From: a candidate division WOR-3 bacterium
GTDB lineage: Bacteria > Hydrothermota > Tepidihabitantia > SM23-42 > JAOAFX01
Reading direction: 5' to 3'
Assembly: GCA_039802005.1 (NCBI GenBank)
Contig: JBDRVV010000019.1
Coordinates: 1 to 51,135, forward strand
DNA: 51,135 nucleotides
Shown: positions 22,313 through 27,239 of the stretch, piece after piece
Layout: each line of letters starts with the position of its first letter
Position numbering within the stretch: the stretch's first letter is position 1
Notes under the pieces: generated by a model
Told to the model about the DNA's origin: nothing
Databases searched by the model: none
Seen by the model: the letters and a program-made list of their open reading frames with translations, nothing else
Program-made: the position numbers and the translations under genes

Positions 22313-23584
22313 ATGAAACCTAAGATTTTATTACTTGATGATGAGGAAAGCCTTTTAAAATGGCTTTCTTTTGCACTGCAGGAAAATGGTTATGATGTAT
22401 ATGCAACTAACGAACCCAGGAATGCACTTAATCAATTAAAATTAGAGAAATTTGATTGTGTAATAAGTGATATAAGAATGCCGGGAATGGATGGATTCCA
22501 GTTTTTAAAAAATGTTAGGTCTATTTATCCTCACCTGCCGGTAATCTTCATCACTGCCTATGGTTCAATGGAATCAGTCATAAATGCGATGAGGGATAAA
22601 GCAAGTGATTATATCTTGAAGCCATTTGGTATTGACGAAATACTTAATCGTATAAGGGCAAATATAAGAAGAGAAAAAGAAAGACCCGTTGAGATAATTG
22701 GTGAAAGCAAGGTGATTAAAAATATTTTAAGTATGGTAGATAAGATTGCCCAGACCGATACCACTGTATTGATACTCGGCGAGTCAGGGACTGGTAAGGA
22801 ATTGATTGCGCGAGAAATCCACCGTAGGTCAAAAAGGGCAAGTTATAATTTCGTTACTATATCCTGTGCTGCATTACCGGAAACTCTTCTTGAAAGCGAA
22901 CTTTTTGGGTATAAAAAGGGTGCCTTCACCGGTGCTACAACCGATAAAGATGGACTTTTTCTTGTCGCCAATAAAGGCAGCTTTTTTCTTGATGAAATTG
23001 GGGATGCACCGGGCTCAATCCAGATGAAGATTTTGAGACTCCTTGAGGAAAGGGAAATTGTGCCGCTTGGTTCAACAAAAGCCATAAAAGTTGATGTCCG
23101 TCTTATTGCGGCAACGAATAAAGACCTGTATGAAGAAGTGAGACAGAAGAGATTTCGTGAAGACCTTTATTATCGTTTGAATGTCATACCCATAATTTTG
23201 CCACCGCTGCGCCAGAGAAAAGAAGATATACCCTTACTTGCCGAATATTTTTTGAAGTCCATCTGTGAGAGGGAAAACCTTGGGGAAAAGAGATTGATGA
23301 AATCAACGATTGAGGTGCTTAAAAATTATTCCTGGCCCGGAAATGTGCGTGAATTAAAACATATTATTGAAAGGGCAGCAGTCCTTGCTGATACCTATTA
23401 TATCAAACCCGAGCATATCAATGTGAAGTTTGGGAATATTGAGACATTGAAGGAACTTGAAGATAATGAGATTAAAAAGGCATTGAATGAATGTAATGGA
23501 AACATAACTGAGGCGGCAAAAAAACTTGGTATAAGCAGGGCGACCTTATATCGGCGAATAAAGGGAAAGAAGGTAAGAAGATAA
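22313..23584 (+). CDS. Sigma-54-dependent response regulator (NtrC/PilR type)
   Basis: 423 residues in three parts. The receiver domain has acidic residues D9-D10 and phosphorylation site D53 in ISDIRMPGMDG. The AAA+ domain has Walker A GESGTGKE near residue 156, the sigma-54 contact motif GAFTGA near 203, and FFLDEIGDAP. A Fis-type helix-turn-helix (NITEAAKKLGISRATLYRRI) ends the protein. When phosphorylated, such proteins open sigma-54 promoters. The next downstream promoter is a near-perfect sigma-54 site in front of a type IV pilin, so a PilR-like role is the best inference. No partner histidine kinase is in view. Confidence 0.93.
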   Translation: MKPKILLLDDEESLLKWLSFALQENGYDVYATNEPRNALNQLKLEKFDCVISDIRMPGMDGFQFLKNVRSIYPHLPVIFITAYGSMESVINAMRDKASDYILKPFGIDEILNRIRANIRREKERPVEIIGESKVIKNILSMVDKIAQTDTTVLILGESGTGKELIAREIHRRSKRASYNFVTISCAALPETLLESELFGYKKGAFTGATTDKDGLFLVANKGSFFLDEIGDAPGSIQMKILRLLEEREIVPLGSTKAIKVDVRLIAATNKDLYEEVRQKRFREDLYYRLNVIPIILPPLRQRKEDIPLLAEYFLKSICERENLGEKRLMKSTIEVLKNYSWPGNVRELKHIIERAAVLADTYYIKPEHINVKFGNIETLKELEDNEIKKALNECNGNITEAAKKLGISRATLYRRIKGKKVRR

Positions 23585-23613
23585 AAAGTGAGAAGGTACC
23601 AAACGAGACTTAA

Positions 23614-23651
23614 GTGTCGCAAAATGAGACAGAAGATATAAAATGAGACAG
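23614..23651. promoter_or_regulatory. Candidate upstream activator sites for the sigma-54 promoter
   Basis: Two exact copies of AAAATGAGACAG (23621-23632 and 23640-23651) lie 19 bp apart. Together with GTGTC at 23614-23618 they give three (C/G)TGTC elements on the two strands, the type of site reported for PilR in Pseudomonas. They lie about 50-90 bp upstream of the -24/-12 promoter, a suitable enhancer distance. Confidence 0.5.
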
Positions 23652-23701: not shown

Positions 23702-23715
23702 GGCACGATTTTTGC
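23702..23715 (+). promoter_or_regulatory. Sigma-54 (-24/-12) promoter upstream of the pilin
   Basis: GGCACG-ATTT-TTGCA: GG at 23702-23703 and GC at 23714-23715 are separated by exactly 10 bp, a near-perfect match to the sigma-54 consensus. Transcription should start near 23727. Confidence 0.88.
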
Positions 23716-23726
23716 ATATATTATTA

Positions 23727-24149
23727 ATAGAGTCAGTAAAACGGGATCGGGACTTCAGTCCCGTAAATCCGTGGTCTTTGACATAACCTATTGACAATCC
23801 TGAGAATGTGAATATAATATAAAGTAGGATTGTCAATAAAATGTAATAAAAAACGGGCTTTCTGGTAGTGCAAACTAAACGAATGATACCGATTGAAATT
23901 ATAGTGTTTTTCTGAAAGCTTGATACCCTGAACCGTGCCCTAAAGCCCGTATAAAAAGTTAAAGGTTATAAGTGAAAGGTTTTTAACCTAAACTATAACC
24001 TGAAACAAATACAGGGTTGCAAAAGCAACCATTCTACTTCTGGGGCACTATACTGGTTAAGTGGTTAAATAACCATTAACCAACTTTGTAACTCCAATCA
24101 AAATCCGCATAATATGGCGGGTTTTGTAAAGAAAACAAGGAGGTACACA
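23727..24149 (+). ncRNA. Long structured 5' leader of the pilin mRNA
   Basis: About 420 nt lie between the predicted sigma-54 start and the pilin ATG with no ORF. Inverted repeats in order are: 23748-23753/23758-23763; a perfect 13-bp pair 23789-23801/23826-23838; a 9-bp pair 23853-23861/23942-23950; a nested 23963-23970/23994-24001 with 23977-23981/23985-23989; 24015-20/24025-30; and nested 24054-60/24076-82 with 24063-67/24070-74. The 5' arm of the third stem (23856-23862) can pair instead with 23914-23920, so two folds exclude each other. It matches no riboswitch class that I recognise. Confidence 0.55.
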
Positions 24150-24656
24150 ATGAAGAAGGGTTTTACCCTCATTGAATTGATGGTCGTGGTCGTGATCATC
24201 GGTATTCTGGCCGCAATTGCTATTCCGAACTTTATGGCAATGCAGCAGAGAGCAAAAGAATCATCCTTGAAGAATAATATGCATACCCTGCAGACTTCAG
24301 TGGAAGATTTGAATACACGCGGCGCTGATGCATATCCAGTGAACTTAAATACTACAGTTGCCCAAATAAATACTGCGTATCCTTCAACGGGTCCAGATGC
24401 TAATATGTGCGTAGCGGAAAATCTAATTTCGCCATTTGGTACTAATGCAATACTCCCTGATAATGTAAGAAATCCATTTTATCCATCAAATAATGCAGTT
24501 CAAGATGGAATACCTACATACAGCCAGGGTAATATAGGTATATCATTTTATGCAGACACTTTACCCGTAGCTAATGCAGCTCCTTCTTATCGTATTTATG
24601 GCGTCGGAGCCAAAGGAGTACTGCCTCTGACACTTACCCCTGGTGTTGCGAAATAA
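24150..24656 (+). CDS. Type IV pilin-like major prepilin
   Basis: 168 residues from ATG 24150, preceded by AAGGAGG; an upstream ATG at 24114 in the same frame lacks a site. The prepilin peptidase site is MKKG|FTLIE with cleavage after Gly4, giving a mature N-terminal Phe and the conserved Glu5, then the hydrophobic helix LMVVVVIIGILAAIAIPNF. The globular part has a single N-x-T sequon (N67-T68-T69). Only one cysteine is present, so there is no terminal disulfide loop. It is probably the major pilin of a type IV pilus or related fibre, driven by the sigma-54 promoter. A T2SS major pseudopilin is the alternative. Confidence 0.9.
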   Translation: MKKGFTLIELMVVVVIIGILAAIAIPNFMAMQQRAKESSLKNNMHTLQTSVEDLNTRGADAYPVNLNTTVAQINTAYPSTGPDANMCVAENLISPFGTNAILPDNVRNPFYPSNNAVQDGIPTYSQGNIGISFYADTLPVANAAPSYRIYGVGAKGVLPLTLTPGVAK

Positions 24657-24727: not shown

Positions 24728-25153
24728 ATGTTTAGTCCGCAAAATAAAAAGAGATTTCTATTTTTGATATTGACATATCTTATAATAGAAGTTGTGTGTA
24801 GTAAGAATGAAAAAACAGAAAGCACTTCTTTTGTAGCCCCACCCGAAAGCACAATTTATAAATACTGGTCATTTCTTGATAAACGAGATTACAAAAATGC
24901 GCTGAAATATTTTACATTCCATAGGGATGAGTTTTATGATTCAACATTGATCTATCCAATACCAGATAGAATAGATTCAATTAAAGTTGATACGATTATA
25001 TCAGTCAAATTTATTAATAAAAAAACCTGTGAAATTTATTATCGAATAAAATTTTATTCCTATAAAGACAATTGTTTTAAATATTTTATTACTGGAGATA
25101 AGCTTGTTTTGACGAAAAGCGGATGGTTGATTGATGAGGTCCTTATTCAATAA
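24728..25153 (+). CDS. Small predicted lipoprotein, NTF2-like appearance
   Basis: 141 residues. The N-terminus has a charged start, a hydrophobic stretch and VVCSK, a possible lipobox with Cys near residue 24. The body starts YKYWSFLDKRDYKNALKYFTFH and continues with beta strands (IYYRIKFYSYKDNCFKYFI, KSGWLIDEVLI), a pattern like NTF2-like or SnoaL-type domains. No function is recognised. Its end overlaps the start of the oligosaccharyltransferase gene by 20 nt, so the two are coupled. A weak TAAAAT lies at 24715-24720, but the -35 spacing (18 bp) does not fit the rest of the window. Confidence 0.6.
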   Translation: MFSPQNKKRFLFLILTYLIIEVVCSKNEKTESTSFVAPPESTIYKYWSFLDKRDYKNALKYFTFHRDEFYDSTLIYPIPDRIDSIKVDTIISVKFINKKTCEIYYRIKFYSYKDNCFKYFITGDKLVLTKSGWLIDEVLIQ

Positions 25154-27239
25154 AAATTTGCTCCTTATTGTTGTAGCTGCTTTTGGATGTGCACTATGGT
25201 TGCTTCCTCTAATATCAAAACAAAAGGATATTCCTATTTTTATATCACCTGACCCGTATTATCATGCCCGCAGGGTTTTGATAAACGTTAACAATTTTCC
25301 CAATATTCCCGTTTTCGATTATTACATCTCATATCCGACTGGGAATTATTGTATCTGGCCACCACTTTTTGATTTTTCTGCGGCATTGGTTTCCTGGCTT
25401 TTATTTTTAGGACATCCTTCTATATCACAAGTAGAATCAGTGTGTGCGGTTATGCCTGTACTATGGGGTATCCTGGTAATTTTATTAATATTCCAAATAG
25501 GTAATAAATTTTTCAATTCCCGAATGAACGCTTTATTAGCATCCTTCATTGCTACAATTTTACCGGTTACTTCTTTTTATGCAAGGGCAGGATATTTTGA
25601 CCATCACATCAGCGAAACCTTCGGTTTGCTTTTAATATTTTATTTTCTTATAAATGATGATTCAAATTGGATGCGAAAGTACCTGAAATTAGGATTTGCT
25701 TTCGGCATATCACTCCTTTTATGGCAAGGTGCGATACTATTTATTGGATTATCTTTCATCTTGCTTTTGGTTCATAAAGAATTTAAATCCTCAATTTCTT
25801 TTCTTACTGCATTTATTATCATTTTACCATTTAGTGTAGACACTCATTTTATTGATAGCCCATTTAGTTATCGCGGTCTCTCATATTTGCATTTGTCTTT
25901 GCTTTTAATAGCAACTTTAATCATGTGGGTTATGGTTATAATGCGGTCAAAAAATAGACTAAAGATAGTTGCGGTAATACCTATTTTTTTTCTTTTTATT
26001 TTGTTATTTTATTTGCTTCGTACCAAATCCTTTATCAATGGACTTTTTTTTATTTTTAAAAATGACCCATGGTTAGCAACAATATTGGAATTCCAACCAT
26101 TATTAGTACAAAGCGGTTATATTGATAATCTCACGGTGAAGCAAACAATTGGCTTAAGTTATTATGTCTGGCCAGCAATGCTTTTAATTACGATTTTAGA
26201 AAATAGAAAAAATAAATCAATTATTTATTTTATATTTTTTTGTCTATTCACTGGGTTGATATCATTTATAGGCCGCCGCTATGGAATCTGGTTTATCCCA
26301 TTTTTTTCGCTTATATTTTCATACACTCTGATAAAGATTTCCAAATTATTTAGCCCCAAAATAGGAATCGCTTTTAGCACTGTTGTTTTATTTCTAAATT
26401 TTTCTACAATTGATATAAGGTTTTATGGGATGCGTTTTGATGTACCCACAAGGGATGAAATAAATGCGTGCCGATGGATAAATGATTCACTTCCGAAAAC
26501 CAGCTATGTTTATAAACCCAACAGTAAACCTGAATATGGTATTATGTGTTTCTGGGATAGTGGTCATTATATTGTATATTTAGGTCAGAAACCGGTTACC
26601 GCATCAAATTTTGGTAATGATGCTCCCAACTTTCAAATAGTCAGTCAATTTTTTTTAACACAAACCGAAGAAGATGCATTAAATATTCTAAAAAAATTGG
26701 AATCTCCTTATGTGTACATGTATGGTGTATTGCGGAATATTTATTTATCTGCCAAATACTTAAAAGTTACACCACAGGAATTTTTAAATATATATTATAC
26801 TAAAGATAAAGCAGGCAAACCAATTACGATTATGGAACCAAATTCAATTGGTATCGCAACGAGTAGTTATCGACTTTCACAATATTTAGGAAGCGGATTT
26901 TACTTTAAAGATAAGTTTTATCCTCCGTATCGTCATTTCCGCCTTAGATATTTCAGTGGCAGTGTGAGAATATTTGAAATTGTTAAGGGTGCTGTAATCA
27001 AAGGCAAGTCCCTACCTAACACATCAGTAAAAGTTTCATGTAAAATTCAACTACCTAATATAACATTTGATTATTTTGATTCAGTTTCAACTAATAATAA
27101 CGGAGAGTTTTTAATTACAGTTCCTTATCCCACCAACTATGACAATGGTTACGAAATATTTTTTGATACAAAAATGGAAAAAACTATTTTTGTTTCGGAA
27201 GATAACATTAAATATGGGGATACAGTTTATGTAAAGTAA
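25134..27239 (+). CDS. STT3/AglB/PglB-family oligosaccharyltransferase
   Basis: 701 residues, with about 12 membrane helices in the first 430 and a soluble C-terminal part. The first outer loop has SPDPYYHARR (D40), the STT3 catalytic acidic loop, and YFDHHISETFG is a second conserved loop. The soluble domain has FWDSGHYIVYLG (W474-D475-S476-G477), equivalent to the WWDYG acceptor-binding motif. Such enzymes move a glycan from a lipid carrier to Asn in N-x-S/T. The tail (about 615-701) resembles a carboxypeptidase-regulatory-like beta domain. The neighbouring pilin has one N-x-T sequon, so pilin glycosylation is a reasonable inference. ATG 25134 is preferred over the adjacent TTG. Confidence 0.85.
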   Translation: MRSLFNKNLLLIVVAAFGCALWLLPLISKQKDIPIFISPDPYYHARRVLINVNNFPNIPVFDYYISYPTGNYCIWPPLFDFSAALVSWLLFLGHPSISQVESVCAVMPVLWGILVILLIFQIGNKFFNSRMNALLASFIATILPVTSFYARAGYFDHHISETFGLLLIFYFLINDDSNWMRKYLKLGFAFGISLLLWQGAILFIGLSFILLLVHKEFKSSISFLTAFIIILPFSVDTHFIDSPFSYRGLSYLHLSLLLIATLIMWVMVIMRSKNRLKIVAVIPIFFLFILLFYLLRTKSFINGLFFIFKNDPWLATILEFQPLLVQSGYIDNLTVKQTIGLSYYVWPAMLLITILENRKNKSIIYFIFFCLFTGLISFIGRRYGIWFIPFFSLIFSYTLIKISKLFSPKIGIAFSTVVLFLNFSTIDIRFYGMRFDVPTRDEINACRWINDSLPKTSYVYKPNSKPEYGIMCFWDSGHYIVYLGQKPVTASNFGNDAPNFQIVSQFFLTQTEEDALNILKKLESPYVYMYGVLRNIYLSAKYLKVTPQEFLNIYYTKDKAGKPITIMEPNSIGIATSSYRLSQYLGSGFYFKDKFYPPYRHFRLRYFSGSVRIFEIVKGAVIKGKSLPNTSVKVSCKIQLPNITFDYFDSVSTNNNGEFLITVPYPTNYDNGYEIFFDTKMEKTIFVSEDNIKYGDTVYVK

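Follow-up and report, generated by a model that had tools for sequence, protein, structure and literature searches.

A conserved predicted pseudoknot and a boxA-like element precede a type IV pilin gene within one order of candidate division WOR-3 bacteria

The window, by which we mean the whole stretch of DNA analysed (51,135 nucleotides), is a contig (G000:C19) of a candidate division WOR-3 genome whose nearest named relative is WOR-3 bacterium 4484_100. It contains a 423-nt leader, correctly placed by the original prediction at 23727-24149, between the genes encoding an NtrC-type sigma-54 response regulator and a type IV pilin. The regulator was identified by the Pfam domains Response_reg and Sigma54_activat together with a Fis HTH, and 23 of 24 loci have a homologue ahead of the pilin, with 64-87% identity in relatives. 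The pilin carries the N_methyl domain (PF07963), and the prepilin N-terminal domain model TIGR02532 scored above its cut-off. Cells frequently produce pilin as one of their most abundant proteins. Two genes past the pilin, an oligosaccharyltransferase of the STT3/AglB type (25131-27239) suggests N-glycosylation of the pilin. The features of the locus are as follows:

22313-23584, + strand: NtrC-family sigma-54 response regulator (PilR-like by position), directly upstream of the pilin leader
23607-23650, no strand assigned: putative activator sites, GACTTAAGTGTC and two ATGAGAC(A) copies (GTGTC-type boxes)
23702-23715, + strand: sigma-54 promoter, -24/-12 element (GG-N10-GC), GGCACGATTTTTGC
23772-23784, + strand: boxA-like element TGGTCTTTGACAT, 9/10 consensus letters
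23789-23838, + strand: P0, perfect 13-bp inverted repeat (23789-23801/23826-23838) around the -10 element
23791-23818, + strand: predicted sigma-70-like promoter within the leader, TTGACA-N16-TATAAT, 12/12 consensus letters
23853-23861, + strand: P1 5' strand, ACGGGCTTT, pairing perfectly with 23942-23950
23862-23934, + strand: variable loop L1, containing an alternative arm (23914-23919)
23935-23941, + strand: PK 5' strand, GUGCCCU, pairing with 24042-24048 (99.4% of cells paired)
23942-23950, + strand: P1 3' strand, AAAGCCCGT = AAAGCCCGU, directly abutting the PK 5' strand and pairing with 23853-23861
24015-24030, + strand: P2 hairpin, GGUUGC/GCAACC, preceded by an invariant G at 24014; GGGUU and ACC are invariant in all 24 leaders
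24042-24048, + strand: PK 3' strand, GGGGCAC, pairing with 23935-23941
24054-24082, + strand: P3 hairpin, genus-specific
24099-24126, + strand: P4 hairpin, genus-specific, 11 nt before the Shine-Dalgarno (SD) sequence
24138-24143, + strand: SD sequence AGGAGG
24150-24656, + strand: type IV pilin, 168 aa, ATG at 24150

The sigma-54 promoter that had been postulated ahead of the leader was confirmed as the -24/-12 element GGCACGATTTTTGC, and the same element is present in the leaders of relatives. The putative activator sites were read directly from the DNA, with similar strings occurring upstream of the sigma-54 promoter in relatives; the GTGTC-type boxes are presumably linked to PilR boxes. 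Within the leader, a TTGACA hexamer followed by a 16-nt spacer and a -10-like hexamer was found in about half of the 24 leaders, with 12/12 consensus letters in the genus of the window. In that genus, the inverted repeat around the -10 element may serve as an operator as well as an RNA stem. This internal sigma-70-like promoter bears on the originally named refuting outcome of a transcription start close to the pilin ATG; if used, it would nevertheless yield RNA that contains the pseudoknot described below. In those members of a second family that possess it, its start would fall at the P1 5' strand, placing the pseudoknot at the beginning of the transcript; the other members of that family are devoid of this promoter.

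A second sigma-54 promoter, 91% identical over 33 nt to the pilin promoter, is located at G000:C39:5330-5362 (L002) and precedes a gene for an outer-membrane PorV-like protein (resemblance judged by eye), which is a possible second target of the same control. The 33-nt repeat was considered as a second copy of the leader and rejected, as only the sigma-54 promoter stands before the PorV-like gene, without boxA or pseudoknot.

Folding of the whole leader yielded -125.8 kcal/mol compared to -86.0 ± 5.3 kcal/mol obtained for dinucleotide shuffles (z = -7.6; 0/100 shuffles as good). The perfect 13-bp inverted repeat originally reported is present (P0, z = -6.4 alone); it is retained in the two other species of the genus and is weak or absent further out. 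P3 and P4 were derived from the fold of the segment between PK and SD (z = -5.1), and the two other species of the genus carry hairpins of different sequence at the position of P3 (z = -4.8 and -5.1). This segment shows strong, sequence-unrelated structure in the three species of the window's genus and weak structure in most of the second family.

The arm around 23853 had been predicted to pair with 23942-23950, and GTGCCC with a downstream GGGCAC. The first pairing is perfect (23853-23861 with 23942-23950). The second exists as well, with GTGCCC at 23935-23940 as given, the position of GGGCAC being 24043-24048, one base off the 24042-24047 originally assigned. The original prediction had overlooked that P1 and GUGCCC/GGGCAC belong to one pseudoknot, and had also missed the rRNA-type boxA; the GUGCCC/GGGCAC pairing, which it mentioned last, is, judging by the comparison of leaders, the heart of the element. 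This comparison showed the predicted core to be an H-type pseudoknot (P1 and PK) with the hairpin P2 in its long loop. As no nucleotide separates the PK 5' strand from the P1 3' strand, coaxial stacking of P1 and PK is possible. The leaders of relatives share one order of elements, namely the sigma-54 promoter, TGNTCTTTNANAA, in about half of them a TTGACA-N16-TATAAT-like promoter, the P1 5' strand, L1 (1-73 nt), the PK 5' strand, the abutting P1 3' strand, a linker of 10-66 nt, the GGGUU...ACC hairpin, 10-12 nt, the PK 3' strand, 30-90 nt and the SD sequence. A minimal form with a one-nt loop 1 reads GGCUCU-U-AUGUCCC-AGGGCC-...-GGGACAU (L091). Strict sequence conservation is found inside P1 and P2 as invariant G-C and U-A pairs; approximately three nearly invariant positions lie outside the helices.

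Covariation was evaluated in a main alignment (A2) of 23 distinct rows, composed of cut-out blocks with the loops removed. Standard pairs make up 96.8% of its cells, falling to 21-56% after sliding the partner by 1-3 columns; the rows were chosen by a pattern demanding six pairs in P1 and no fewer than six in PK, which biases the percentage paired upward. The covariation counts are less affected by this pattern since several positions were left free, yet they are not fully independent of it. Changes on both sides were observed in four out of seven pairs of P1 and likewise in four out of seven of PK, the latter being G-C/A-U, C-G/U-A, C-G/U-A and U-G/G-C. For P2, the base-proximal pairs are nearly invariant and the fifth pair covaries. 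In total, 9 pairs changed on both sides compared to 4.2 in shuffles, corresponding to 29 cells compared to 8.0 ± 3.4, where the counts represent sequences related by descent and not events. Uncut sequences running from PK to PK (alignment A1, covering PK and P2) were 99.6% paired with 15 doubly changed cells compared to 3.8. The two interleaved helices, each with four doubly changed pairs, are those of an H-type pseudoknot, and a conserved, covarying structure in a 5' leader is also a property of riboswitches. The leaders of orthologous pilins share a conserved, covarying core, in agreement with the original expectation.

Searches for the pilin covered all 27 genomes of the order as well as GTDB genomes. 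A covariance model (R1) was built of PK and P2, and neither the window nor the P1 5' strand was used in its training. R1 yielded exactly one match per genome in 23 of the 27 genomes of the order, most of which had also trained the model. The window, absent from training, was recognized with 28.9 bits (E = 1e-4), and a further genome outside the training set (G003) at E = 6.5e-5. In the genome search, the window's own genome reached only E ~1.5 owing to its 66-nt linker, and no second copy was found there; in the other three genomes without an R1 match (G006, G014 and G025), the pilin match is absent, weak or partial. The core was found once per genome, solely before this pilin, and is conserved across 12 genera. 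Outside the order, the search of class and phylum (147 genomes) gave no credible copy among the matches listed, under strict filters that weak or divergent copies may escape; one match (G096) was discarded, being located in an apparent EF-Tu-like coding region. No credible R1 match was obtained at pilin loci of other phyla (L004-L082).

A search of the whole window against Rfam 15 detected only two tRNAs at gathering scores. None of its families, including the c-di-GMP-I and c-di-GMP-II riboswitch models, matched the leader at E ≤ 5 or the leaders of 11 relatives at E ≤ 1, so that no known family in Rfam 15 accounts for the RNA originally predicted. No pilin-linked motif was found in a survey of 104 RNAs or in the other literature searched, a search that did not extend to a 2017 survey of 224 candidate RNAs. 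The predicted structured RNA family, absent from Rfam 15, is new in this sense; its general kind, a cis-regulatory leader, is known, and an earlier description is possible.

Scored against the consensus TGNTCTTTNANAA, the boxA downstream of the sigma-54 promoter has 10/10 letters in 12 of the 24 leaders, 9 in nine and 8 in three, compared to 0.01, 0.27 and 2.8 leaders expected from shuffles. At least 9/10 letters occur in 21/24 leaders compared to 0.28 expected, counts that are partly circular as the consensus was derived by reading the same leaders. Independently of the pilin leaders, three rRNA leaders of the order (G005, G009 and G021) carry TGTTCTTTGAAAA (twice) or TGATCTTTGAAAA (once) upstream of 16S rRNA. 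For two of these, the single-contig genomes G021 and G009, only fragments of the 16S rRNA scored (L142 and L143), which may be due to insertions in the rRNA genes or to a limit of the search. In the pilin leaders, boxA starts 15-21 nt past the -12 GC in 20/24 cases and 32-56 nt past it in the window's family. NusB matches were obtained in 27/27 genomes of the order, 23 of them scoring above cut-off, and Rho was matched in each of the 16 near-complete genomes. The element shows the properties of an rRNA-type boxA: the consensus near the 5' end of the transcript, a position conserved relative to the sigma-54 promoter, and NusB and Rho encoded in the genomes. For comparison, the published gamma-proteobacterial consensus is GYTCTTTAANA (PMC5725501) and a Legionella boxA is GTTCTTTAAAA (PMC7862264).

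The pilin-leader boxA belongs to the same string class (TGNTCTTTNANAA) as that of the order's 16S leaders. In contrast to an rRNA leader boxA/Nus site, it sits downstream of a sigma-54 promoter, ahead of just one protein-coding gene, and is followed by a pseudoknot; it is a putative NusB binding site. A boxA before a non-rRNA transcript has precedents in suhB, a ParE-like toxin and CRISPR arrays (PMC5725501, PMC7862264). It regulates suhB, acting as a repressing element in E. coli (PMC5725501), and an added boxA raised CRISPR-array RNA ~10-fold in Legionella (PMC7862264). The pilin leader differs from these in gene and phylum, and in that a structured RNA, itself conserved, separates boxA from the coding sequence. 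The combination of a predicted rRNA-type boxA and a pseudoknot on a pilin message is an unusual pairing.

At 13 out of 18 loci scanned in other families of the class (L148-L151, L153-L158, L160, L162 and L163), the best homologue of the pilin immediately follows 23S-5S rRNA genes. Those of their leaders that were read are of another kind, with a sigma-70-type promoter and lacking both boxA and this pseudoknot; pilin and rRNA expression appear to be linked twice in the class, by different ways. Upstream of the pilin at L152, L154, L157, L158, L159 and L161, several loci contain GAGACC/GGTCTC-like inverted repeats between promoter and SD, possibly representing a second pilin leader RNA family.

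A switch-like architecture had been proposed on the grounds that the P1 arm could pair with either 23942-23950 or 23914-23920, but not both. In the window, the competing partner is indeed present (GAAAGC, 23914-23919), with a 9-nt competitor run exceeding that of all 200 shuffles. This alternative pairing is beyond chance in the window only (0/22 other leaders tested), and the loop containing it varies from 1 to 73 nt in relatives. No intrinsic terminator between PK and SD was seen by eye in the relatives' leaders read. Sequestration of the SD sequence by the pseudoknot was considered and rejected, since SD openness showed no consistent shift between free folding and folding with P1 and PK, an indirect test as nested folding cannot score a pseudoknot. 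A conserved expression platform as expected for a riboswitch was not found among these leaders. What stands of the proposed new regulatory RNA for pilus production is a conserved and covarying element outside Rfam 15 that is tied to one pilin gene; the switch itself is not supported.

With moderate confidence, we propose that the major pilin mRNA of one WOR-3 order carries a new cis-acting leader RNA, exerting post-initiation control by Nus-type elongation and a structured leader and thereby raising output. The core is well supported as a structure; the mechanism is what we infer. The adjacent NtrC-type activator would fire the sigma-54 promoter, NusB/S10 would bind the boxA close to the start of the emerging transcript and modify RNA polymerase as on rRNA operons, and the modified polymerase would then traverse the lengthy, strongly structured untranslated region, escaping both pausing and termination by Rho. 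The pseudoknot might, on weaker grounds, represent the folded 5' body of the message, protecting the mRNA and holding the ribosome site apart, and might form the very 5' end in species where transcription from the internal promoter would begin at P1. Overall, this would amount to very high pilin output and not to a metabolite on/off switch; a structural role fits better than an aptamer because few unpaired bases are invariant and no platform is conserved. Several observations argue against this explanation. In E. coli the suhB boxA represses (PMC5725501), the pilin gene is short and its need for antitermination is not obvious, the internal promoter in about half of the leaders would yield transcripts without boxA, and the invariant G-C/U-A pairs in P1 and P2 hint at specific recognition by an unnamed protein or ligand. 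A role of the pseudoknot as a 5'-exonuclease barrier against RNase J is weakened by the lack of any RNase J above the family cut-off in the 27 genomes of the order. A tentative extension is that this is a new class of regulatory RNA, in which antitermination tag and pseudoknot form a joint processivity/stability module allowing a sigma-54-controlled pilin gene to reach rRNA-like expression, with the pseudoknot possibly being a sensor or a polymerase-contacting element.

Pseudoknots with an embedded hairpin are a common aptamer architecture, and the pseudoknot together with P2 might be an orphan riboswitch that binds a small molecule, e.g., a cyclic dinucleotide, and alters elongation, stability or translation of the pilin mRNA. 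The layout, with stackable P1 and PK and an extra hairpin in the long loop, is that of H-type pseudoknot riboswitches such as preQ1-II; in the WOR-3 leader, PK lies 30-90 nt upstream of the SD sequence and does not contain it, and few loop bases are invariant. GGDEF domain proteins are encoded in 27/27 genomes of the order with 7-20 matches each, and pilin genes are known targets of c-di-GMP riboswitches (PMC6366702), as in C. difficile, where a type IV pilin leader is likewise structured in a GGDEF-encoding organism. The WOR-3 leader differs in matching no Rfam family, the c-di-GMP classes included, and in lacking a recognised expression platform, be it a conserved terminator, SD sequestration or a conserved alternative pairing. 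Taken with the single copy per genome before one gene and the scarcity of near-invariant positions outside the helices (~3), this makes a ligand-sensing switch possible but less likely than post-initiation control, and on the whole rather improbable.

Similarly doubtful is a protein-binding autoregulatory leader, in which a protein on P1-PK-P2 would repress or protect the pilin mRNA, or a boxA-Nus loop would repress translation as at suhB. The narrow range, the one copy per genome and the GGGUU...ACC invariant in 24/24 leaders resemble protein-recognised leaders, and boxA repression has the suhB precedent (PMC5725501), but there is no known candidate protein, and the membrane-inserted pilin is an unlikely RNA binder. 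It seems very improbable that the leader has no part in pilin regulation and instead marks a processing signal or is what remains of, or gives rise to, a distinct small RNA. Transcription from the internal sigma-70-like promoter could begin at P1, but the element is in every case 30-90 nt ahead of the SD of this pilin, no terminator was seen in that interval, and the genomes searched yielded no copy at another place. Structure arising neutrally or by chance in AT-rich DNA, to which the restriction of the strong P0, P3 and P4 hairpins to the window's genus might point, is refuted for the core by covariation, z-scores and conservation across 12 genera, and can hardly be entertained.

The leader represents a structured RNA family new to Rfam 15, with solid covariation, from a phylum known here from metagenome-assembled genomes only, and it would tie a type IV pilin mRNA to rRNA-type Nus machinery. 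As boxA, NusB and Rho are conserved, the module is directly testable in E. coli. Post-initiation control by an RNA module that raises pilin would, if true, add a new layer over sigma-54/two-component control.
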